Origin: Polytrichum commune
Lineage: Eukaryota; Streptophyta; Polytrichopsida; Polytrichales; Polytrichaceae
DNA: 64,000 nt
Reading direction: 5' to 3'
Assembly (NCBI GenBank): GCA_950295325.1
Contig: OX485809.1
Location: forward strand, 33,914,001 to 33,978,000
Position 1 is the first letter of the stretch. The number at the start of each line of letters is the position of its first letter. Below the pieces are notes generated by a model, which saw only the letters and a program-made list of their open reading frames with translations, had not been told where the DNA came from and searched no databases. This document shows positions 13,969-55,569 of this stretch, one piece after another. The translations under genes and the position numbers were made by a program.

Positions 13969-14232
13969 TGGAATCATTAAGAGACAAGATTGCACAAGCA
14001 TAGGCACCTATACAAAGGCATATGAACAATACTTGGAATGAGATAGTCTCATGCTCTCCTGGCTTTGCCTTTTATTCTTTTTCTTCTCTTCATTGGTTCA
14101 CAAAAACAATATGAGATAAATTTTATCCCTCTTCAGACTAGAATAATAGCCTTATTCTAACATTGTTCTTTCTCATACCTCTTTCATTATATTTTTATTA
14201 ATTATGAGCAATCTAATGCTCTACCTTCTACA
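13969..14232 (-). repeat. 3' LTR of the copia element
   Basis: On the plus strand it begins TGGAAT and ends TTCTACA, giving TG...CA ends. It aligns with 17424-17686 throughout, sharing AAGATTGCACAA, ACAAAGGCATATGAA and CAATCTAATGCTCTA. Confidence 0.85.
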
Positions 14233-14243
14233 CTCTCACTTTG
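14233..14243 (-). promoter_or_regulatory. Polypurine tract
   Basis: Read on the minus strand this is CAAAGTGAGAG, immediately upstream of the 3' LTR. A purine run at this position is where plus-strand synthesis is primed in LTR retrotransposons. Confidence 0.6.
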
Positions 14244-15705
14244 CGAGTAGTCAAAGGCTTCTAAACCCATCGTCTTTGTTAATGTTTGATGCCTATCATT
14301 TGCAAGTGGTTTGTTTAGCACGTCCGCTATCATATCCTCCGTTGAATAATACTTCAAACATATCTTTTGGTTTTCTAGTTTCTCTCTAATGAAATAATGT
14401 TGTACGTCGATATGTTTGGTGCTAGAATGGTGTGTGGGATTCTTTGAAAGTGCTATGCATCCTTGATTGTCACACATGATGGATGATGGTCCTTCTTGCA
14501 CATATCCTACATCCGCCAAAAGTTGCCTAAGCCAAACCGCTTCCTTAGTACAATGGCTAGTATCCATGTACTCCGCCTTTGTCGTAGACAATGTAGTGGT
14601 TGTTTGTTTCTTGCATTTCCACAAAATGACTCCAACGCCAACAAAAAACACGTACCCTGTGGTGGATTGCCGGCCGTTTGTCTCTCCCGCCCAATCCACA
14701 TCACAAAAACATCTCAAGATAGTATCCTTACCTCTGAGGCATAATTTGAAGTCCAAAATGCCCTTCCAATACCTCATGATGCGTTTTACGGCCATCCAAT
14801 GTGGTGGACCGGCCTTCTACATGAATTGGCTCACCGTACTCACCGCAAATGCAATATCGGCCCTCATGGCCACCATTGGATATGTGAGAGATCCTACTCC
14901 GGTTTTGTATGGAACACCTTTCATTTCCTTCTGCATATTCATAAATTCCTCATCCGAAAGTTTTAGCAATTTTGAATTCACATTGAACGGAGTTCCGACC
15001 GGTTTGCATTCTTTCTTGTTAAAACGCTTGAGGACCTCTTTGATGTAGCTCCTTTGGTTCATGCTGGTGGTACATGCTTCTCTATTCTTCTCAAATTTTA
15101 CTCCTAAACAATAATATAATTCTCCGAGATTGCTCATCTCAAATTCTTTCTCAAGCTCTAATTTGAGTCACTTCAATTGGATCACATTGCTTGCCAATAT
15201 GATCAAATCATCCACATAGAGGATTGCCACCAACAAATACTTACCCATTTGTTTAACTTACAACGAATGATCCGCTTGGCTCCTACAAAAGCCCTTGTTA
15301 ATGAAGAATGAGTTGATACGGTGGTACCACACCCTCGGCAATAGTTTGAGCCCGTACAAAATTTTCTTAAATTTGCACACAAGATTTTTTTCCCCCCTCT
15401 TCTATAAAACCCTCCAGTTGATCCATATAAATCTCCACCTCCAATATTCCATTCAAAAACGCCGTTTTTACATTCATTTGGTGGATCTCCCAATCCATCG
15501 CCGTTCCTAATACAAGAATGCATATAATGGTGATAACCTTAGCCACGGGAGCAAAGATCTTAATAAAATTCACTCTAACCACTTGAGAATATTCTCTTGC
15601 TATTAAATGTGCCTTATATTTAACACTTTCACCCAATACATCATTCTTGGTACGGAATATCCATTTGCATCCTACATTCTTGCAATCCTTTGAAGGGTTG
15701 GTCAA
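14240..15705 (-). pseudogene. copia reverse transcriptase and RNase H, broken
   Basis: Three minus-strand frames together carry a copia-type reverse transcriptase followed by RNase H. Visible landmarks are VKTAFLNGILEVEIYM (about 15420-15480), LYVDDLI, the catalytic motif (about 15205-15225), GSLTYPMVAMRADIAF (about 14840-14890), an RNase H start FCDVDWAGETNGRQSTTGY, and KAEYMDTSHCTKEAVWLR with the acidic residue of the second catalytic site. The CDNQGCIALSKNP segment and TKHIDVQHYFIRE follow in the usual order. Frames are broken near 14800, 15140-15200 and 15370, so no functional polyprotein is made. It is confidently Ty1/copia. Confidence 0.9.
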
Positions 15706-15969
15706 TTCTTACGTACCGTTGGCTATGAGCGAGTCATATTCTTCTTGCAATGCGGCCTCCCATTTGCTTGCATCTTCATATCTGAACGCTTCGTAAACAT
15801 TCAAATGAACATCCTACAATGTCACATTGACTCGTTATTCGCCATGTTGGGGTAGAATGTGATTATTTCACCACTCTCCAAGCAAAGGCCGCTCCTTCTT
15901 AGGATATATTACATTCTTCATGGGAATTTTGATTGCCTCTTCATTTGCAACCTAGTGATCTCTCACTTG

Positions 15970-17225
15970 CTACTCGCGTTTCTCACCATCATCACATGAA
16001 GATGATTTGGAAGATTTGTCTATAACAACTGTTGTAGGACCTTCATTTCTTCCACTTTGATGCATTTCTAAAGCGTTTTCAATGCTCGTGTCATCTTCCA
16101 TGATTACCATGTCTCTACTTTTCATGATTTTTTTAGTTTGTAAACATATTAGCCTATAGTCCTTAGTTCTTTCACAATAGCCTAAAAACAAACATTTTAT
16201 ACCATTTGCATCGAGCTTACCTCTTTGTTCATCCGGCACCATTACATAGGTGACGTACCCAAACACACACATGTATGCAATGTAAGGCCTTCTTTTGCTC
16301 CACGTTTCCTTCAGGTGTAATGAAATCCAACAATTTTATTCGACAACGGTTTCATGTGTAAACCGCATTAATCATCGTTTCCGCTCAAAATGATTTGTCG
16401 AGGTTTTGAGCATAAAACATGCTCCTTTCCATCTCTATGTTGATTAAATTCCCATGCTCTGCCACTCCATTTTATTGAGGCCTATACGGGGTAGACATTT
16501 GCTTCTCGATACTATAATTCTTTAAAATTTTGTTGAATGTCTTAAAGAAGAGATTTCCCGCCATTGTCTGACTGAAATGTTTTGATTTTGCACTATGATT
16601 GCATCTCTATGAATGCCTTGAATTCTTTGAGCTTCTCAAAGCAATTCCCTTTGGATTCAACACATACAACCACATATTCTTTGAAAAATCATCAATGAAA
16701 GTTACCAAATACTTTGCACTGCCCATGGATGTAATCCTCATGGGGCCACAAACATCGGAATGCACAATTTCCAAAGGCTTGCTCACTCGCCTCCCACCTC
16801 GTTCGGAAACGCAATCCTATGTTATTTGCCTTAGATGCACGCTTCACAAAGCAACGGAGACATGAGGTAAAATTTTTTGCCAAGATTCATATTACTCACT
16901 ATGTTTTGGAGGATATGAATATCTTTTATGTTCAAACGGGCAAGGCGGCGGTGCCAAAGCTCTAGCGCATCATCTCGCGTCCACGATTGCACCAAGTTAG
17001 CCACTTCCGCTTTGTGTACCTTCACAAAATTGATTTATGTACAAGTTGCATTCACGTGACGCAATCGCAATGGCTTCACCATTGCAAGTTTTGACAATAT
17101 ATCTATTTGGAATATATTTGACTTTGATACCGTTTGACATGAGTTTGCGCACCGAGAGCAAATTTGCATGCAATTTGGACACGTGGAGCACACCTCCAAA
17201 CCTCTTAAATAAATCTCTCAACACT
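15970..17225 (-). pseudogene. copia integrase and GAG-pre-integrase, broken
   Basis: The minus strand shows the GAG-pre-integrase linker (LHVSKLHANLLSVRKLMSNG, about 17130-17190; LWHRRLARLNIKDI, about 16940-16980), then a CEAC-type zinc-finger half and the integrase core around HSDVCGPMR and TFIDDFSK (about 16690-16770). The usual TPQQNGVAER motif survives only as TPYRPQ, a stop, then NGVAE near 16440-16490. The conserved FGYVTYVMVPDEQRGKLD segment lies at about 16210-16270. Stops and frame changes make it nonfunctional. Confidence 0.85.
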
Positions 17226-26345: not shown

Positions 26346-26747
26346 AGGGCACCCAAACCACAACCTCCTTAGCCATCTCCTACTTAGTAGGACCTTATCC
26401 TATCCATTAACTCCTTACCCCCCTAAACTAACAAGAACACGTTCTAATTCAAACAATTAACTCAAAGGCTCTTCCTCTTGCCTCCTCAAACACTACTCCT
26501 CTAATCAAAACACTCCCTAATGTCACTAAGCTTCTAATTCACCACACAAAATGGCTTAAAGCCTAAAACATAAACCACACCAAGCCTCACTCTTTTTATA
26601 CTTTTGATTGTTTTAACAACACTCCAAATGCAATTCTAAGTAGGTCCTAAACATAAAACAAATATGAGCACTCATTTTGGGCTCATACCATGTGCCAATA
26701 CGAATTTGAACCACGGTAACTTTTACATACAAACTTTAGACAAACAT

Positions 26748-34565: not shown

Positions 34566-36199
34566 TGTGAGGCCAAACCCACCACCCTTAAGCGTCCTAG
34601 TCCGGGTGGTGGTTTTGAGAATCACATGTGTCATACCAAAACTCGCGGTAACATGGAATGTAACTCCCATCTCAATGAACTCCCAACTTACTTAGAATCA
34701 TGATGTTTTATTGATGTTAGCCTCTTGAATAGGTAGAGCATTGGCCTTCTCAAGGGTCCACCCCGCGGCCTTGGCTACACATGCCCTTAGTGATATCCCT
34801 ATTGAGACCTTGACATTAGCCAAGACCTTCTCATTAGTGATCTTAGCCTCTGTGAGGCTATGGCTTGTCGACTCCATGTGACAATTAAATTTCTAATACC
34901 TTAATCCGCAATCGTCACCCAAGGCCGTCCTCTTTGTGGGGAACCACACAACTCACCCTGGTGCTTTACATCAATTTTAGCACATCAATTCATTCCATGA
35001 TAAGGATACAAGTGTTAAAAACACTTCTCTCTCTCTTATCACTATCTTAGCATTCCTCTATTGCAAGTCACTTCTAAATTCACTCACAAGTTCACTCCCT
35101 AACGTCAACAACCTCCAACTTAAGGGGTTCCTAATTGTAACTCCAATGCTAACCCCGCTAACTTCCTAAATTCTACCTAGCTACCCCCCTTAACTCATAA
35201 CCCAGCTCCTACCTAAGCCCTAGTTCAAATGGCTCCCACTCCTTATTGTGGTTGCTACCCAACAACCAGCTGCAGTGACCGGGACTGCTCAACCCCAGTC
35301 CGGTGGCTGGCTAAGCCTTCAACCCAGCTGCAGTCTCGTCCAGGGGTCGGCTAAGCCTTCGGCCCAGCTGCCGTTTAGTCCAGGGGTTGGCTAAGCCTTC
35401 GGCCCAGCTGCCGTTTAGTCCAGGGGTTGGCTAAGCCTTCGGCCCAGCTGCCGTTTAGTCCAGGGGCTGGCTAAGCCTTCAATCCAGCTGCAGTCTCGTC
35501 CAGGGGTTGGCTAAGCCTTCGGCCTAACTGCCGTTTAGTCCAGGGGCTGGCTAAGCCTTGCATGTGAATACTCAACTTAGCTAAACCACCATAAACACCA
35601 TTCAAACTAAACTAAATCAAACTAGATTAAACTATAAGCCTAAACAACTAAGGACTAACAATCAAATGACTAACGTTCCTTTTGGGTATCACCCACAACC
35701 CACACACACACCTCTACACACAAGAGAGGGAAGGGTTGAGAGTGAAAAGACAAAGAGAGAGAGCATTGAGAGAGAGAGGAAGATTTTGAAGAAGAGAGAA
35801 GAAAAGGTAAAGAGAGGGAACTTAAGGAGAAGAGAGGATAAGGGAGGAAGAGGAGAGAAAGGGCATCCAATCACAACCTCTTAAACCTTCTCCCCCTTAG
35901 TAGGACCTCATCCGCTCCGCTAACCCTTCAACCCCTAAACCAACAAGAACACGTTCTAATTCAAACAATTAAATCAAAGGCACTTCCCCTTGCCTCATCA
36001 AGCACTACTCCTCTGATCAAAACACTCCCTAATGTCACTAAGCTTCTAATTCACCACACAAAATGGCTTAAGGCCTAAACATAAATCCACACCAAGCCTC
36101 ACTCTTTTTATACTTTTGATTGTTTCAATAACACTCCAATTGCAATTCTAATTAAATTCTAAACATAAAACAAATATGAGCACTCATTTTGGGCTCATA
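34566..36199 (+). mobile_element. LTR-like element C (1634 bp)
   Basis: Ends are TGTGAGGCC and GGGCTCATA; ATGCC is duplicated at 34561-34565 and 36200-36204. Close to the left end CCACCACCC and GGGTGGTGG form perfect 9-base arms around the shared TTAAGCGTCCTAGTCC. A hairpin AAGTGTT...AACACTT lies at 35010-35026. A minisatellite and a purine-rich tract (35730-35865) follow, with the shared TTTTTATACTTTTGATTG near the right end. It has no protein domain. Confidence 0.85.
35305..35563 (+). repeat. Minisatellite of element C (40 bp x about 6-7)
   Basis: Units of the type GTCCAGGGGTTGGCTAAGCC followed by TTCGGCCCAGCTGCCGTTTA. Two units carry a TGCAGTCTC variant in place of TGCCGTTTA. Confidence 0.9.
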
Positions 36200-39418: not shown

Positions 39419-39688
39419 GGGGGGGGGGGTATCCCCCTTACTTGACTTAGGAAGAAAAGTAACCGAATAAGGGTCGGCTCCCTTGCACAAGACTAAAGAA
39501 ATGGTCCCATGCCTAGACCGAGTGCCTACCTACACGTGGTTCGTAGACTGCGTAGAGTAGCCATTGCTCCCCTGCTTCCCTCCTTGGGTCCCTTTTCTAA
39601 CCTCCTGCGCTACCCATCATCAGCTTTGAAGCCTTGCATTCTTCCTCTACTTATAAGAATGACAGACATTACATGATCTCCCACTTTT

Positions 39689-40350
39689 CGCTCGCCAAAG
39701 ATTCTTCTGCTTCCTCCGTCGTCCCAAGATTGTCTCCAAACAACGTTGGCAATGGCGTCCAAACATTGAATGAAGCTGTGCTGCAATAGATGGTAGCAAG
39801 TAAGCAGCTCAACTCCAACATTATACTCCAACATGTCCCCCTTCTTGTCTCCTTCGTTTGCAACTGGGCCACTCTCACTACCTATTATTAGCTACGTCTC
39901 ATTACGCACTCATTCTCGTGTGCAAAGATTCTGAGTCCTGAGTGTGTTCCGTGTTTCTTTCATTCATGAAGGTAACGCTCCCAAGATTGTGTTGGACGGA
40001 GCCTCAGCGTTGCTCCTGCCGCCATTGGGGGCGAGAAAACGACGCTGTCACGGCGGTATGGATGGTTTCTTCGTCTTATTTGTGTGTCTTTCTGGATGAT
40101 TTAGCTCCAGAGAGCATATGGAGCTCCCGGGTTGAATTTGGCTTTTGGGTAGGTAATATGAGGTTTGAAGTCATGTTGGGATACTTTAGGCAGGTGTGAC
40201 ATGGTCATTGGTCAACTATTCTCCCGCGCGAAGATTCTGAAATCTCATTTTGTGCTTCTCTCATATGTGAAGGGTAACGCATCCCAAGATTGTGTCTCCG
40301 TATTGGCATTGGTGCCGGAACAATGAAGCCGTGGCCGTATGGATGGTACA
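39689..40350 (+). repeat. Three related segments upstream of the DNMT3-like gene
   Basis: Segments near 39690-39780, 39917-40065 and 40228-40350 share AAGATTCT, then CCCAAGATTGTGTC-like sequence, and the last two also share GGTAACGC and GTATGGATGGT. They lie between the repeat-rich flank and the gene start and may form the promoter or untranslated exons. A small frame at 39942-40199 lies across one of them; no domain is seen. Confidence 0.55.
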
Positions 40351-40438
40351 GAGCTCCATACCGGCCTCTTTAACTCACTTTTAAACCTAGTGTTTGTGCT
40401 GGGTTCCACTGCTCCTGATTGAATGAAATCAATATTAT

Positions 40439-40461
40439 GAGAGAGAGAGAGAGAGAGAGAG
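40439..40461 (+). repeat. (GA)n microsatellite, probable 5' UTR
   Basis: A 23-base GA run about 460 bp upstream of the proposed start codon. GA/CT runs are common in plant 5' untranslated regions; whether it is transcribed here is unknown. Confidence 0.6.
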
Positions 40462-40917
40462 TTGTTTCTCGAGCAATTCCAGTGCTGGAACTCTCTTTTT
40501 GCTTCTGGCTCATCTGATATGATCAGTCAGTATGTGTTGTATTTTTAAATTGCTTCACCCATTTCGTACTGGTTATAACCTGCTGGAATGTGACCTGGCG
40601 AAAGTCGTGCTAAGAATTTGTTTGGTCACAGGATTGCTGACATTATTAATTACTCGATGTCAATCCTGATGATATGTCTTTTCCCGCTACTGGATTTCAC
40701 TTGAATCAATCCAGCACTCATGACCAACATCATACCGTATGTGAAATTTATTGACCCAGTCCATCAAATCACTATGACGCGGAGAGAGCTATGGACACTG
40801 CCATGGTGTCTGATCATATGTCCCAGCGGTAAATATGATCACGTGGTGAGTGCAGGTGAATCGACGTCTTTCTGAGGCCTGCATAGGTTATCCTCAGTGT
40901 TGGAGGGCTGTATCACA

Positions 40918-43900
40918 ATGGACTCCTTCCTTAGGCAGCTTCAGGAGCTAACTAAAGAGGCTGAGAAAGCGCATCAGGAACTTGAAAGGGAGAAAAAAGA
41001 ACTTCAGAGGGAGAGGGAGGCATTCCAGAGGGAGACTCCAGAATTTCAAAGTCCCAGCAGAAAGAGAGCAAGGCGAGATCATCGCTCCGGTGGCTCTCCG
41101 AAAGTGGTTACCTATAATTTGCCAACGGATCCTGCAACCGTGAAGGTGCTCCCTAATGACCTGAACTCCGATCCGAAATTCATCATGTCCAGCTATTCCA
41201 CGAGTGGCAAGAAGCATTGAAAATCAATGACAAAAATAGTAACCAAAAGCCATCAATAAACGTCTGAAAGTTCTCATCAGAAGCATAACATTGAATTATC
41301 ATATGTTGATGCTGGCGAACATCCTAACCCTGGTGCATTATGTAGTTTCCATGCGACAAGCTTGGGCTGTTTCTTCAATTCAAGATTTGCATATGCACAT
41401 ACAAATGATGGACGCTGATGTCTACTATGAGCCCTTGTCCAGGGCTGAAGCTATTGATATATTCTTAGCATTTGAATTTTCTTGAATATCGCAATACAAT
41501 TAAGTGTATAAAGAAGCGGCAGAAATTATCGCAGGCAAATTTCGAAGGAGATGGAGATGGTGATTGGGTGGCTGCCTTCAAAGCCCAGGATGGGCCATGG
41601 ACCGGTAAGAAGCTGGTGGTACTTAGCCTGTTCGATGGCATTGGGGGGATCTGGCAAGCTCTCAATCGGCTGGGCATTCCCTTTATTGGCTACAGCTCTG
41701 AAGTGGTAAGTAGATTACGCTACCAGCTTTTAATAAACCTATGTGTGATGCATTTCGCTTAGAAGTTCACCGATGAATGCAGCACAATGTCGCACCTAAA
41801 AGCCTCCCTATAGCATGTCAGATATGATTCCTCTCAAAGTATCACCTGAAGCACAACACAAGCCCTTAACTTTTCAAGAGGGGACTATGTATTGCCTGCA
41901 CATACACTCTTGGAGTGATGTCAGGGTTCTGCTCCTTAGAACGGTGGGTGATATCTTGAAGTTATTCAGGTTGAGTATGGATGTCATTAGGAATGTGGTG
42001 AATTTTGAGTAAAAGAGAGGAATTCATGTTCTATGCTTCGTATTCCTGATCATGACAACTCCCTAGTTCTTTGTTTATGCTCAAGTTTAAATCATTCCTC
42101 ACCTGAAGATAAATCTATTGGCCAATTATGTTTTAAACTTTGATAAAAAGGACGAAGGGTTGATGGTTTCCACGGTTTGCTTTTACAAAACTATAGATTG
42201 TACTAGGGTTGGTTTGTACTGGCGGTAGTGAGTGTATATGTTGAGACTTCTGGTTTCGAGCTGTTCCTAAGGACATTATCACCGAGGGCATCAAATGCAG
42301 GGTCTCGGATTGACAACAGAAAACCCGCAACATGACCTTTAGTATTTGAAGGATGTGTTTATTTGTATGTATTGTTACTTGCAGAGCAAAGCGGCAATAC
42401 AAGTGGTGAAAGTGCGCCATCCCCAAGTCAAGCATGTGGGTGACGTGAGGACATTGGAGAAGTCTGCCATCCTTGAGAAGGTGGATCTTGTGGTTGGGGG
42501 CTTCCCCTGCCAGGACTTAAGTGCCATGGGCAAAAAGGAGGGGTGACGCTTCTAACTACATTCCAATCTCCAACGCTGTGTCTAAAACCTGCAACTAATC
42601 CGAGTGACACTGAGGATATACTCCATAGAGTAGTGATCTTGCCATACTGGATATTGGGTTCTCTGCAAAGGAACACACACCTATGCATGACCAATTTGTA
42701 GGTTATTGGACATTCTTACTCCAGTGGAGGAACTATGGATCTCTTTTGGTGACGTCTGTTTACGTGTCATTCCAGAGTGACTATGTGTGATTGAGGATTG
42801 TGAGGAATTTTATATTATTTGCTCTGAAACTTTATTGGTTGCTGCTGGATTGCTACTCTCTGAGTGAAGAAGACACTGAAACTTTCTGAGCATGAACTTC
42901 TGATTGCTATTGACAGGCTCCACGGTAGCAGAAGTAAACTCTTCTTTGACCTCCTCCGTGTGATAAAGATCTTCAGACCGAAATGGTAATTGATTACACA
43001 TACTTGTAAAGGTTGAAATTTTGATTGAACTTCTGATCGCTTTGGCTGAAAATTGATAACCTGATTGTCATTGCTAGTGTGGATGGACTGCTTGTACTGT
43101 CAAAGTTGTACAAAACCAACCAAATCGACTTTTGTGTCTTATTTTTGTGGTGGAAAAGGGAAGCAAACGTGAGTTTCTTTTGGGTTACGACCATGATTGT
43201 AGGCTTGGTTGTGATTCATCATCCATGACCACTTTCTGTGAATCTGTCACAGGTTTTTGGTGGAGAATGTAATGTCAATGAATTGGGTTGACCGGGATGA
43301 GATCTCCAGGCACCTAAGAGTTCCTCCCTTCGAATTAGACTCCCAAGAAATCACAGCGAGTAAGCGGAGACGGGTATATTGGACTAATATTCCACATCCC
43401 GAACGTCTGCCGCGCTTACGAGACCATCCATCGACATCCCTTCAAAGTTGCCTCCAAAATGCATATGCACTAGAACAAAAGGCTGGGGTAATGTTTTTCA
43501 GGTTTCAAATTACTGTACATACTTGAAGAATTCAGTGTCTCATTGTCAATATCTGAAAACATGTTGACCTTAGTACTTATACTTGGTTGGGGGTGCAGGT
43601 CATTCTTTGCAGCAACCAGTACAAGGGTGGTACTGCAAGGTTGGGACATGTACTGGAGAAAGACACATATACACTTCGATATGTCAAACAGGCCGAGATT
43701 GAGATGCTCATGGGCTATCCCGCAGACTATACCAATGTTCTACGCTGTGATTCTGATAAACCTGAAGGTGTTGGGGTGTCACAGAAGTAAGGCACTGGTG
43801 CATGCTTGAGCCCTGCATTGTGAAATTGAGAGGTCCTTTCTTCATCAGACAAACGACCCTCTGGATGTTGGTCACCTTTTTAAGCACATCTGATTGAAAT

Positions 43901-46900
43901 TCTATTTTTCTTTGTTTAAATTTGTAGGCAGGAGTCAGAGTATGTTACCAAGTGTAGTTAGGCATTTGAAGCTACAGGTCTTGACACTTTTCTTAGTACT
44001 TGGGAGTGTAGTCAAAGTGGTGTGGAATGGGTACCCTTGTCTGAAGGATTATGCAGAATGTAGGCTTCTTGTTGGCCTTTGAATTTGTACACCTTAGTAA
44101 TGAGGTGGCGATGTACATTCTATGTGGTTGGAATATGTTTAGCAACATTTGTGCATATCAATGTGTGCAGTGTGAAGCATGAAGCCACTTTGTTAACATT
44201 GTCTTGTGACTCAACAACGAACCTTGTGGTGGGTCATTCATGTGCTCCAGGAAAGGGAAGGGTAAACTAGAGATGCCAAGCCCAGCATCTCACTCAAGAA
44301 ATCTACGTCAGAATCGGCAGACTAGGATTTTGTACAACCAAGGCCCGGCACACAAGTCACAGCAGGAAGCACTGACGGAAAATGAGAGGTGGTATTTAGT
44401 GGGCAACTCCTTCTCAGTATGATTCTTGACCTTCCACTTACTATTCAATGTAGTCCTTACTTCATGAAAAAGAAATCAATGTTTTGTTTACCTTGCTTCT
44501 TCCCTACGTTTTGATTGGAGCAGCAAACTGTAACTGTTCTCTGCAAGGTCTTTCAATCAATCAAATTTTCAAGATCCTTCATTGTGGTATGGCATCTGCA
44601 TAGGCAATCATATTGTACAGGAGAATGCATGTCCAATTTTTGTATTGGTTTTCAGAAGTATTTCTCAAACACAGGTGCCTGCTGTTACCTATCTGATCAG
44701 CCCACTGCTGAAGAGTAGCGTGCAATCAACAGGAAGGCCTGTGACGATCCCTGGCCCTGTGAAGGAGGAAGAATTGTCAGCTATGGAACCTGGTGATGTA
44801 TGTACCTTTTTACTCTGTTGTTAGCTTCATGTCAATGAACAATTTAGGTGGACTTTAGGATTGTCTTCTCAATTTGCTGACAGGTTGTAACAGATTATTG
44901 GCAGCTGCTTAGTTGTTTTAAGTTCTTATGGGTGCTTGAGAAAGGATAATGAAGACCATTGCACTTTAAAATGAAGTCTTCTTTCTGACTGATTTCAAGA
45001 ATTCTGGTATCTTTTTCCATCTCACCTGTCAGTTTGTGATATTTGATGTTAAGGTGAATGTCCAAAAAGCACTAATGTAATTGAAATTCTCTTATCCTTT
45101 GCGAATTTAAGGAGATCAAAGTATAATTGTTCCAACTTCCCTGTTGCACTTGCATAAAGTAGGTGGGCTATGTGGCAAATACCAACAGTTTTGCTATTTA
45201 TTTTTGACAAGCTGAGTGATATTTAAGAGCTGACACAAATGTGTTTGGCAGTTGTGGGCATTATTCAATGAGCATGGGCGACCAAATTGGTATGCTGTTA
45301 TTCATTCCAGGACTGGGGACAGGTTCTCAGAAATTCCGGATGCTACTGGGAAACGCAATGTCACAAAGACCCCTCTTCACATTGAAATGTACATAGTATT
45401 TATCATCAGCCCTCTTTCTTTTCTAGTACTTAAGCACCAAAACTACAAACTAAATTTCATGGCAATATGTTATATTAGGAAGGTAGAATGTCTTAAATAT
45501 TTGCACCCAAGTTGTTGCAATTTTGAGGTTCTTCAGATGTCAAATCTTTTCACTCGTTGCAATTAATGGCCTCTGTACTGTAGGTTGTTGGAAGCTTGGG
45601 ATCTAAGCTAGTAATTCTTTCATATTCTTTGGTCAGTCCAGTTAAATAGGAGCAGCTGAAGAATTCGTTGTAAAGTTTGTGGCAACATATTGTCTAGGGT
45701 GCTCTTTACCTAAACAAGCAAGGATGTACGTTGTTGAATATCTCTTCATGTTTCAGGAGATACCTGGAAATGACTGAAGAGTACCTAAAAGATGAACAAG
45801 ATCAATGGAACCCCAATCGTGGGACTGGTGTCCTGAGGATAAGGGAAGCGATTGATATCCAGACCTCATGGACAGCTTTTTCTCACAGGTGCCTGCCTTG
45901 AGATTCATTACTCACTAATTTGTAATAATAACGTGCCAACAAGAACTTCCTTTTTCCTGTGATACTGTGTTCTTTTACTTTGTGAAGAGTATTTGTGTGT
46001 TTATCTTTGTTCTTTCACTGTGTGCTTCACTGAACTTCCTCTATACTGGAGGTCAGAGTTGTGCAGTGTAGGAATCTAACACTTGAGTGCTCAGACTTAT
46101 TAAAACTATTTATGAAGTTATTTGCCTTATTCAGCTTGTTGTGGTTCTTTTAATACAGGGTGACAAGCTTTGTGAAGTTTGAACACGGTTATTTTGTATA
46201 CCCAGGAAAGCATGAGGTGTGGGCAGTTTATAATATGGACACATTGACTCGCTACTTTGTGGTAAGCTTACCATACATTCTGAACCATTTTCTAGGCTAG
46301 GTATTTCTGAATTGTCATCAAGGGAGTGTCACAATCCTTCCAACTTGTCAAATGTAAAAACAAGATCAAGAGAATTTTCTTTTTATGTGTATTCAGCATA
46401 CAACACGAACTTGCTACTCAGCTTTGATTACTTTTGGATGCTGAAAATATGATCTGATTGTGGACGGCCTCAATTCTTCTCTGCAGTATGTAACAGGAAG
46501 TACAATAACTGTCCAAAATCTCGAAAATGCAAAACCAGGGGCTGAGGGTTTCTTTGCAACTTGTCAGCTCTTGCAGAGAACAACAGACCACGAGGTTTTC
46601 CGGTATATCTTTTAGACATTATTTACTTATTCACTTGTTCCTGGTTTTTGTTTGCTTGTTTACAGAAAAGATATATTTCTCTTTCATGGTAGGAGTGTAA
46701 ATTAAATGAGTAAACCTTGCTTCTGAGGCTAGTGCTACAAGGATAGTGTTGATAAACAAGATTGTGTAGGCATTGAATTTACAAGTGGAGCATGTTGTTT
46801 GTTACATTCTGGGTTGGTTCCTTGACCCTCCAGTTTTAATGTCTTTATGCAAATTCTCTCCAGGAAATTAGACCTGACGTTGAAGTTCACGAATCTGAAA

Positions 46901-47305
46901 GATTTTTGCTTCCAAGTACCATATTACTTTAGGCATGAAGCGAGCCTACTGAAGGCAGAAGTAGCAGGTGTTAAGAGTCGAAAGAGCTTAGCTTTTGACC
47001 GTCAGACGAGACCAAGGCGTAAATGGAAAGGAAAGCGGAAAAGTGGAAGGGGCCAATACATTTCTTCTGATGAGGATGAGGATGAGGATGAGGCTGAGGC
47101 TGAGGTTGAGGTTGATGACGTGGAGGAGGAAGAGATTGATGATGTTGTCAGTGTGGAGGAAGCCTTGGGGGTTGAGGAAGGCATACAGGTTGAGAACCTG
47201 GCAGGCGTAATTACTATCCTCGGTGATAGTGATGCAGATGAAGAAGGCAATCTTGATGATAATGGTTCTGGACAGGGAAGTGGTAGCTCCACCCTGGAAA
47301 CTTGA
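40918..47305 (+). CDS. DNMT3-type cytosine-5 DNA methyltransferase fused to DUF3444-like domain
   Basis: Thirteen coding exons are modelled with GT/AG borders and consistent phases: 40918-41145, 41469-41705, 42385-42542, 42917-42985, 43253-43487, 43599-43786, 44251-44416, 44675-44797, 45252-45388, 45757-45888, 46159-46261, 46487-46602, 46864-47305 (777 aa). Residues 1-45 are a charged coiled coil followed by a basic stretch (SRKRARR). The methyltransferase has motif I LSLFDGIGGI (128-137), IV GGFPCQDLS (194-201, catalytic Cys197), VI ENV (235-237), VIII KRRRVYW (268-274), IX around MLMGYPADYTNV (about 345-356) and X GNSFSVPAV (423-431). This canonical order excludes permuted DRM enzymes, and spacing fits DNMT3. 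Residues 465-655 resemble DUF3444 (PGDLWALF, AFSHRV, YPGKHEVWAVY, FQVPYY). The tail is basic, then acidic, with VITIL before acidic residues. No PWWP or ADD domain is seen. The ATG context is ACAATGG. The first intron is the weakest part; exon 2 could start at 41538. The product is expected to methylate DNA de novo in the nucleus. Confidence 0.88.
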
Positions 47306-48480
47306 TTGAGGCTATCATACCTCAAGGGCAATCAGGCAATCACGTCTTTTCGTTCAATATGCGCCAATGAGTGGAAAGGATTAGGAACCCACATGGAAGG
47401 AAATCCCACTGGTAGGTGGAGTGTGGTAACTCTGGGATGCTGTACAAGAAGAGATGGATCATCAAGAAGATGAGAAGATCCAAATTTCCCAGAATTGCTG
47501 CTGATGAAGAATTTATCAAGAATTGATTGCACCCACACCCCATTGTCATGGAGCATGAATGATCTTTCTCCTCAGCAGCTCCCTGATTGGTGAGGACTCA
47601 ACTTTGACCTGAGTAGGAGAGTTGTGGTCTCAATTGATGACAACCTTCTGATCAGCCTTCTTGGCAAGGATTATTCATTGTTTTGTCACTTGTAACCTCA
47701 TTCTTAGAATATGAGCAGTTCTCTTTAGCAGGCTTCTCACCTCAGTTATGTACCCTATGCTCGCGATATGAGGACATGGCTAAGTTAGTAGTATGGAGTG
47801 GACTTGTGTCAACTGAGCAAATTTTTCTATAGGGTGAGAAAAGGAAAACAAGAACACTGATTGCAACTCTGTACTATGGCTTTGGGTTTCCCTGTTGCCC
47901 AAAAACCACTTAGTGTGCAGAGTATCAGTTGTTACTATTGTAGCTGGTGAGGTGGTGTTTCAAATTGTGGCAGCATAACATTGATATGCAGACTTATTCT
48001 TTGATATTGTCTGGGCCACAAAAACCAGGAAATTTTGTATAATTGTAGTTTTTCTACCATTAAGCTAACTACTGTAGTTTACAAGGTTTCAGATACCCCT
48101 TTTCTGCAACTTATGTACTATGTCTGTTTCCTTTGCTCGATGTTGGGGTACCGTAGGTAGATAGCCAGTCCAGCACTAGGTAATCTGAAAATAGATTCAA
48201 AATTATTCTTGAAAATGTAGACATTTTTTTATTTTATTAAGTTTACTTTTATTTACTGTACGCATTTGCAGAAATATGGTAAAATTCTCCCTCTACACAA
48301 GATTATGTAGACTGGTATGTGCAAAGGCTGGGACAAACCAACCCGTACAATGGTTCCTTGGAGGCAAGGGTTTAGGCATCATACATGCATGCATGCATGG
48401 TTAGCTCCTCATACCAACTTCCAAGCTCATAGCTTGGTTACCAAACCCTCTTACACATGCAATTCGGGACTCTATTCGTA
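47306..48480 (+). other. 3' flank and probable 3' UTR
   Basis: Sequence after the stop codon keeps the compositional style of the gene region for several hundred bases (CT- and TG-rich tracts), but no clear AATAAA signal could be assigned. A short ATGC tetranucleotide run lies at about 48383-48399. No further gene is seen. Confidence 0.4.
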
Positions 48481-49950
48481 GTAGGTAGCCAATGGTTAGA
48501 TGTGGACTTCCATTCATGAAAGTCCAATCTTTAGTTGATCATCATTTTGTCAAAGCAACATTACAACAACCCGAAGCATACTTGGAAACTTTGCCCCCAT
48601 GTTGGGCCAATGCCTGTAGAGGCCGTGTTGTTCTGCAATGGGCGGGGTCGGTCGGCAATGCCGCCTCCCTATATAAGCCTCTAGGACTTTGGGTATGGCC
48701 CCTATCCCACTGCCAAATAACTTTTTGTCTCTCCCTGAAGAGTTGGGGCTAGGTAGACATTTTCCTTTGCCATTAGGGCTAGAGGCCCCCATCAGCTTCA
48801 AACCTCCATAATCTTTGTCACCTAATCTTTGATTCTATCCAACAACTAGTCCATCGACATCTACTCTTACTCCTCACTTACCCCATTCGGGCAAGTATTG
48901 TGGGAGTTATGATTGTTTTGGGTGCCACTCCTAGGTCATTGTCGTCCCACCACAACACCCCATGGAGTGTTGGGCGATGTCTCTAGCTAGTGCCCCACTC
49001 AAATTGTCATATCTCCTAACTCACATATATGATTGGAGAGTTCTTGAGCATTTTAGAATTTGGACGCCATAAGCTATCTAATGCTTATGGCCTTACCCTT
49101 GTGACTCCTAGTTTCAGTGGGTGGGAGGCATTCTCAAAGCCCGGGGCCCTCACCTACACTAGGATGACTTGGGCCCTTTCACCTATGGCATCACAAGTCC
49201 CGAGTGTCACTCCAAGATTCCCCTTGTGCCCATGGTGTTGCGGGCACTCCTCATGGAGAGGTACACGACAAAGGTATTCGAAAAGGGTGCTATGCCTTTA
49301 TCTTACAATTTAAAATGGTACTGGTTTGGATTTGGATATTGCAATAGCATGTCTATGCTAATATTTGGTGGATATGACATTGTCCGATAATGTTTGTGCC
49401 TTAAGTATTATGAAACATGTTGACATTATGGCTTGTTGCGTGTGTAATCACATGCCATGTGCTCCAAATGGAATCGACATCATTGTAACTATGAAATACT
49501 CATACTACGTTATGAAAAATAGTGTGATCAACATTACAATCAATTTAATGATGTAAAGAATAGAGAGTACTCGATCAATAATATGTGGTCCACCAAACTG
49601 AATGATACCATTCCCCATGATTGCGACGTGGATGAGTGATTGTATTTCCACAACTCATATTGTGCTTTGATATTGACAACTACTGTGGTCTTCCCTATTG
49701 TGGGGCCTGTAGATTGGCACAATGTTCTTCCCAATTCCATGCAACACTTAAAGTTGTCTCCTAAGGTGTATGCGATAAACATTGGACAAAATGACAATAC
49801 ACCACAAATATTATCAGAGTTCCAGTGGAGTTCTTAGTGAATAGAACTCACATCATATTTTCATGTTATATACAACTTTATATAGCATATTTCAATGTCC
49901 CCTTTACTATGAAAACCACTAACATTATTTTATTTTGCTTCTACCCTGCT
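48481..49950. other. Stretch without a recognised gene
   Basis: Short frames occur on both strands but none shows a domain. The minus strand at 49540-49800 may continue the decayed region that begins at 52.7 kb, without recognisable motifs. Confidence 0.35.
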
Positions 49951-53864: not shown

Positions 53865-55569
53865 TGTGAGGCCAAACCACCCACCCTTAAGCGTCCTAGT
53901 CCGGGTGAGGGAATGGATATCACATTCATGTTTCCACAACTCCATTTGACCAAATTCGTGAGAATCCATTACATCTCCCATCAATCATTGCACACCAATC
54001 CATTCCACGATATTATTACAAGCGTTGACAAACGCTCTTCTCTATTATCCCAATCATAACACCCCCTATTGCTACCTCAATATCATTCGCACCCCAAATT
54101 CAACCGCTAATTCTACCATCCAATACTTCTTGTTTTCCTAGCTTACCAACGAACTAATTATTTAAACTAATATTAAGTGTCAACCTAATTAACTATCTAT
54201 TACCAAGTCCAATGTGGCACCACGGCATTCCCATGTAAGGCCGGCAGCTGTCTCCTTATACTAGCTAACCCTTGAAGCTACTGTCCCACTGCCTCGGCAG
54301 CTGCCTCCTTATATCAGCTAACCTTGAAGCTACTGTCCCACTACCTCGGCAGCTGCCTCCTTATATCAGCTGACCCTTGAAGTTGTTGTCCCACTACCTC
54401 GGCAGCTGCCTCCTTATATCAGTTGACCCTTGAAGCTACTTTCCCACTGCCTCGGCAGTTGCCTCCTTATATAAGCTAACCTTGAAGATACTGTCCCACT
54501 GCCTCGGCAGCTGCCTCCTTATATAACCTAACCTTGAAACTGCTGTACCAACTGCCTCCTTATATCAGCTGACCCTTGAATTGTTGTACCAACTGCCTCG
54601 GCAGCTACCTCCTTATATCAGCTAACCTTGAAGCTACTGTCCCACTGCCTCGGCAGCTGCCTCCTTATATCAGCTAACCTTGAAGCTACTGTCCCACTGC
54701 CTCCTTATATCAGCTAACCTTGAAGCTACTGTCCCACTGCCTCGGCAGCTGCCTCTTTATATCAGTTGACCCTTGAAGTTGCTATCCCACTGCCTCCTTA
54801 TATCAACTAACCTTGAAGCTATTGTCCCACTGCCTCTTTATATCAGCTAACCTTGAAGCTACTGTCCCACTGCCTCCTTATATCAGCTAACCTTGAAACT
54901 GCTGTACCAATTGCCTCGGCAGCTGCCTCCTTATATCAGCTGACCCTTGAACTGCTGTCCCACTGCCTCGGCAGCTGTTGCCTTATACTAGCCAAATATT
55001 CAAATCCTAATTAACCACACTAATCCCCTACTTGACCTCACTAATTTCCACAAGACCCTCTTACTAATATTCCTACCTAATCACACTAAATCTCCTAATA
55101 ACCTCTTCCTAATTCACACATGTTTTCTAACTCTAAGAGCTCAAAATCCTAGAGAGGAGGGGGAGAGAGAGAGAGGAGAAGAAGAGAGGAAGAAGAAGAA
55201 GAGAAGAGAGGAGAGGAGGAGGAGGAGAGGGCACCCAAGACCACAAACCCCTTAACATTCTCCTACTTAGTAGGACCTTATCCTATCCACTAAATCCTCA
55301 CCCTCTAACCAACAAGAGCATGTTCTAATTCAAACATTTAAATCCAAGGCCCTTCCCCTTGCTTCATCAAACACTACTCACTTAACCAAAACACTCCCTA
55401 ATGTCACTAAGCTTTTAATTAACCACACAAAATAGGCTTAAGGCCTAAAACATAAACCACACCAAGCCTCACTCTTTTTATACTTTTGATTATTTCAATA
55501 ACACTCCAAATGCAATTCTAAAGAAATTCTAAACATAAAACAAATATGAGCACTCATTTTGGGCTCATA
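53865..55569 (+). mobile_element. LTR-like element D (1705 bp)
   Basis: Ends are TGTGAGGCC and GGGCTCATA; CCTCG is duplicated at 53860-53864 and 55570-55574. It has the shared CACCCTTAAGCGTCCTAGTC segment, a hairpin AGCGTT...AACGCT (54021-54036), the longest minisatellite of the family, a GA-rich tract (55150-55230) and the shared TTTTTATACTTTTGATTA segment near the right end. Element B is its closest relative at both ends. Confidence 0.85.
54248..54985 (+). repeat. Minisatellite of element D (about 52 bp, 14-15 units)
   Basis: The unit reads CTCGGCAGCTGCCTCCTTAT, then ATCAGCTAACCTTGAAGCTA, then CTGTCCCACTGC. Several units are shorter by the CTCGGCAGCTGC block, giving two length classes. The order of long and short units suggests repeated unequal exchange. 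Confidence 0.9.

Follow-up and report, generated by a model that had tools for sequence, protein, structure and literature searches.

Introduction

According to the available excerpts of Yaari et al. 2019 (PMC6453930), the DNMT3 proteins of non-flowering streptophytes have a C-terminal DUF3444 domain. The domain is named once in the main text of that paper, and an excerpt of a 2025 survey (PMC12344493) restates the DUF3444 content of these proteins. In the same excerpts of Yaari et al., PpDNMT3b of Physcomitrella makes heterochromatic CHH methylation and is needed for nearly all CHH methylation and for de novo CG and CHH methylation. The methylation that depends on it is found preferentially in H3K9me2 chromatin, a link that the authors suggested to be indirect, since a chromodomain is absent (PMC6453930). 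Here we describe a gene of this kind in the moss Polytrichum commune (assembly GCA_950295325.1, 408 Mb in 64 contigs). It lies on the plus strand at positions 40918-47305 of the window, that is, the whole 64,000-nucleotide stretch of DNA analyzed (contig OX485809.1, here C7:33914001-33978000); all positions below are window positions. The gene belongs as an orthologue to a known family, and the fusion itself is already known. The initial annotation had proposed a DNMT3 carrying DUF3444 as new biology, and this claim fails because the C-terminal DUF3444 is already stated in the excerpts of Yaari et al. 2019 (PMC6453930).

A DNMT3-Type Methyltransferase Fused to DUF3444

The methyltransferase domain extends over 41535..44719, from exon 2 to the first part of exon 8, with outer limits that we set ourselves. 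It matches PF00145 at 2.9e-28 (99.7 bits against a cut-off of 22; best stretch, residues 105-218). Its translation contains, in linear order, what we take to be motifs I (FDGIGG), IV (GGFPCQD), VI (ENV), VIII (KRRRVYW), the IX region and X (GNSFSVPAV); Cys175 sits in the PCQ of motif IV. The best solved relatives are DNMT3A and DNMT3B: by sequence score, DNMT3B reaches 105 bits, HhaI 55, the best DRM chains 44-47 and DNMT1 22. DRM enzymes are defined by a permuted motif order and a UBA domain; the linear order therefore excludes a DRM, and UBA is absent from the Pfam scan. Animal DNMT3s carry PWWP and ADD upstream of the methyltransferase domain. Neither family was matched by Pfam in the moss protein at E up to 1, where the matches below cut-off were four weak ones (DUF4770, Myc_N, Cep57_CLD_2 and OmpH).

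Downstream, the full protein matches PF11926 (DUF3444) at 1.1e-7 (32.2 bits against a cut-off of 26.1; best stretch, residues 437-562), over profile positions 19-129 of 211 only; the C-terminal part searched alone gives 2.1e-8. PF00145 followed by PF11926 within one predicted protein is the domain content of plant DNMT3s. The DUF3444 domain (45252..46966) is encoded by exons 9-13, namely 45252-45388, 45757-45888, 46159-46261, 46487-46602 and the start of 46864-47305. Exon 8 (44675-44797) runs from the end of motif X through a linker (44720..44797) and closes with MEPGD in phase 0; a phase-0 intron of 454 nucleotides (44798..45251) follows, and the next exon opens with LWALF at 45252, also in phase 0.

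Of 7999 candidates scored in a protein database search, 871 reached E 0.001 or better, and the best 120 of these were listed. PF11926 is present in 34 of the 120 and missing from the other 86, and 33 of the 34 also have PF00145; the remaining one, P0015, has PF11926 alone according to the precomputed family column. The closest three moss relatives among the matches listed are 56-61% identical over 87-97% of the protein. At the level of sequence, a chance match is excluded, because PF11926 passes its curated cut-off and these three relatives align near full length.

An alternative is that the model alone joins two adjacent genes, the first a DNMT3 that stops after motif X and the second carrying DUF3444. 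The junction does hold an intron, the gene model of this species was built from genomic sequence, and a DUF3444-only protein of 187 residues (P0121) occurs elsewhere. Against this stand the relatives with both families in one protein, two of which have transcript-assembly names while several lie on short contigs taken for cDNA (e.g., 660 residues on 2214 bases). In addition, the MEPGD|LWALF junction is gap-free in the alignment with 14 of the 34 PF11926-bearing relatives, from mosses to Closterium, and the phases match on either side. The two-gene model was rejected on these grounds and is highly improbable. The junction intron contains no AATAAA or TATA-like word, which says little because the gene's own flanks have no such words either (no TATA in the 500 bases upstream of the start, no AATAAA in the 1095 bases downstream of the stop). 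The initial annotation is partly borne out: the enzyme is of the DNMT3 type and non-permuted, DUF3444 is joined to it in frame, and PWWP and ADD are missing from the Pfam matches.

Gene Model

Exons were joined from a direct reading of 39500-49000. The 13 exons encode 755 residues in a frame that is open throughout, every donor is GT, every acceptor is AG and the phases agree; GC content is 0.417-0.544 in exons and 0.345-0.416 in introns. The locus is in all likelihood an apparently intact DNMT3 gene. Exon 1 (40918..41145) supplies the ATG, a predicted N-terminal helix and a basic stretch. The start at 40918 is backed by the similar N-terminus of relatives in the alignment, and the structure model of the Physcomitrium relative P0003 has a helix at residues 2-23. 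The C-terminal tail (46967..47305, with the stop codon) is basic and then acidic, of low complexity, and the matching region of the P0003 model has a predicted local distance difference test (pLDDT) score under 50.

The least certain boundaries are the two splice sites of the first intron, its donor after 41145 and its acceptor ahead of exon 2. An exon beginning at 41469 yields the 777-residue protein of the initial annotation, whose frame is indeed open; the 755-residue version from 41535 is equally open. In global alignments with six relatives, the shorter version scores better in four and the longer in two (P0003 and P0007). The 22 extra residues find no good counterpart among the 34 relatives (best local score 29, against 116 for self). 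The choice of acceptor leaves both domains untouched.

Relatives and Phylogenetic Placement

The PF11926-bearing relatives listed come from mosses (Ceratodon, Physcomitrium, Sphagnum), liverworts (Marchantia, Riccia, Calypogeia), ferns (Adiantum, Ceratopteris), lycophytes (Diphasiastrum, Selaginella) and an alga (Closterium). A tree of 29 rows was built from the Polytrichum protein and 28 of the 34 PF11926 relatives, a set that does not include animal DNMT3 or DRM rows. Within it, the Polytrichum protein groups with known plant DNMT3s; its sister group (100/99) comprises both Physcomitrium rows, one further row and a protein of Ceratodon chromosome 4. The gene is very probably orthologous to the Physcomitrium DNMT3 pair. 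A second moss clade unites three Sphagnum rows with a Ceratodon protein, P0005 (M758_UG166500), named as if from the U sex chromosome. The deep forks are unsure because of long branches (Closterium, Selaginella and three further rows).

The DUF3444 Family and Its Internal Duplication

A PF11926 search of the genome contigs gave at least eight matches at six places. The list is a lower bound, because the window gene, with its short, divergent exons, escaped it. Four other copies were compared: one with XRCC4, one with a zinc ribbon (L002), one with DnaJ and a zinc ribbon (L004), and one with no other family in frame. DNMT3-type DUF3444 and these copies form one family (hhalign probability 98% over 97 columns of the first part).

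The DNMT3-type domain was split before KFEHGYFVYPG, a point picked after repeated WA[LV]Y words had been seen. Its two halves align with a score of 46.0 over 76 columns (probability 95%), a value reached by none of 200 column shuffles (best 20.3) nor by a reversed second half (13.4). The first half also aligns with the second half of the other copies (39.9, 90%). From these half-against-half scores, DUF3444 seems to consist of a unit of about 100 residues in two copies, clearest in DNMT3. The signal is weaker in the remaining comparisons: the reciprocal cross-type alignment scores 26.1 (43%), between the two types the second halves match well over 15 columns only, and within the four other copies by themselves the duplication is weak (score 21.6, probability 7.9%).

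In the 35 aligned rows (34 relatives plus the Polytrichum protein), three aromatic residues never vary, the W of WALYN and the W and Y of PNWY (35/35 each), and F, Y or W always precedes LE in xFLE (35/35). The NW of PNWY, SRxGDRF and the R of RGxG are conserved in the DNMT3 type and absent from the four other copies, which suggests a specific job for DNMT3-type DUF3444.

The copy with XRCC4 (L001:4-2196, on C7 near 28108232) is a single open frame of 730 residues with an XRCC4 N-terminal domain (PF06632, 1.1e-11) and DUF3444 (7.8e-59). All eight proteins found in its database search, one named Ceratodon purpureus, have both families; the search took proteins of 0.55-1.75 times the query length, which kept out any short XRCC4 lacking DUF3444. 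L001 appears to be a moss fusion of an end-joining repair factor with DUF3444. It shares contig C7 with the DNMT3 gene, about 5.8 Mb apart, and the Ceratodon relatives of the two genes have chromosome-4 style names in two annotations (4G012300 and 4G015600). Short stretches in P0122-P0128 are 70-98% identical to the Polytrichum DUF3444 (14-23% of the query), and P0129-P0133 are 90-98% identical to the moss XRCC4-DUF3444 protein; Polytrichum commune or close kin are therefore present in lgn, ena and jgi data.

Possible Role of DUF3444

The gene marks the question of how a plant DNMT3 finds heterochromatin without PWWP, ADD or a chromodomain, for which a duplicated DUF3444 with invariant aromatics is an obvious candidate part. 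The N-terminal part is a linear C5-cytosine methyltransferase, and from family knowledge methyl transfer would be the work of this Cys175 enzyme. The C-terminal DUF3444 is probably a duplicated all-beta module, and may serve as a chromatin-docking or control part in place of the animal PWWP and ADD. We lean slightly toward a chromatin reader or docking module, in which conserved aromatic residues of the first half could plausibly contact a histone tail.

BAH domains help bring maize CMT3 (ZMET2) to methylated-histone chromatin. A BAH-like fold for DUF3444 can be entertained only tentatively, and the same doubt attaches to a divergent tandem BAH-like reader that leads the enzyme to such chromatin. 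In EBS, PPYVARV and RWYYRPEE, whose residues presumably form its methyl-lysine cage, occur on strands tentatively taken as corresponding to the DUF3444 aromatic stretches. Against a BAH-like reading, the Z scores of the fold comparison are weak and Tudor/Spindlin rows reach 4.8, while the second half is barely covered, by two EF-P-like rows. Sequence-profile support is also absent: in hhalign, a four-sequence BAH profile scored 8.6 against the DNMT3-type first half (equaled or exceeded by 128 of 150 shuffles), 13.3 against the first halves of the other four copies (26 of 150) and 9.6 against the joint DUF3444 set (103 of 150). Pfam gave no BAH match in the DUF3444 part, and a PDB sequence search with a 6-row DUF3444 profile returned one chance-level match (E 0.5). 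The 50 rows listed by a fold search with the full-length model were all methyltransferases. In the open-license literature, no match was found for DUF3444 together with 'BAH domain', nor for plant DNMT3 with BAH and a C-terminal domain of unknown kind. The stronger version, in which a tandem BAH-like reader would recruit the enzyme straight to H3K9me2 or H3K4me0 nucleosomes, is unlikely. If true, such direct targeting would account for the CHH methylation of heterochromatin, whose tie to H3K9me2 is described by Yaari et al. as likely indirect.

Alternatively, DUF3444 could be a protein-protein or chaperone-adaptor module as in DnaJ-type proteins, with heterochromatin reached indirectly via CMT or H3K9me2-binding partners. 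In the genome, DUF3444 also accompanies DnaJ plus a zinc ribbon in L004 and a zinc ribbon in L002, and an indirect link is favored in the excerpts of Yaari et al. (PMC6453930), yet the stretches specific to the DNMT3 type speak for a specific job. This adaptor role falls somewhat short of an even chance.

Surroundings of the Gene

Elsewhere the window is rich in repeats, both tandem arrays and dispersed ones. Broken pieces of a Copia-like polyprotein were recognized at 14202-16335 on the minus strand by reading of open reading frames (ORFs), the largest being 204 residues without a Pfam family. An imperfect tandem array at 54242-54977 has a unit of about 40-53 bases that includes the words CTGCCTCCTTATAT, and a 275-base repeat at 26413 recurs at 35925 (92%) and 55295 (64%). 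No second DUF3444 or methyltransferase was seen by eye in window ORFs of at least 100 residues, Pfam gave no family at E up to 0.1 for four other ORFs, and tRNA and Rfam searches of the window found nothing.

Comparison with Known Systems

PpDNMT3a and PpDNMT3b likewise have a linear DNMT3 methyltransferase domain followed by a C-terminal DUF3444. The Polytrichum protein shares 59-65% identity, varying by method, with the two Physcomitrium rows (P0002 and P0003) and branches outside the Ceratodon-Physcomitrium group. Marchantia MpDNMT3a and MpDNMT3b have the two domains in common with it at 48% and 45% identity and, in the tree, form a liverwort lineage with its own duplication. DNMT3 has been lost in flowering plants. 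DnaJ-type and other DUF3444 proteins share PF11926 with the Polytrichum protein; the four other genomic copies are only 21-23% identical to its DUF3444 and have DnaJ, zinc ribbon, XRCC4 or no partner instead of a methyltransferase. Any function established for DUF3444 in DNMT3 could extend further, since the domain is also present in plant proteins of the DnaJ type. Animal DNMT3A and DNMT3B have PCN in motif IV and PWWP and ADD upstream, whereas the moss protein has PCQ and a DUF3444 downstream of the methyltransferase. Should the BAH-like reader be real, plant DNMT3s would be the C-terminal-reader counterpart of both the BAH-bearing MET1/CMT enzymes and the PWWP/ADD-bearing animal DNMT3s.
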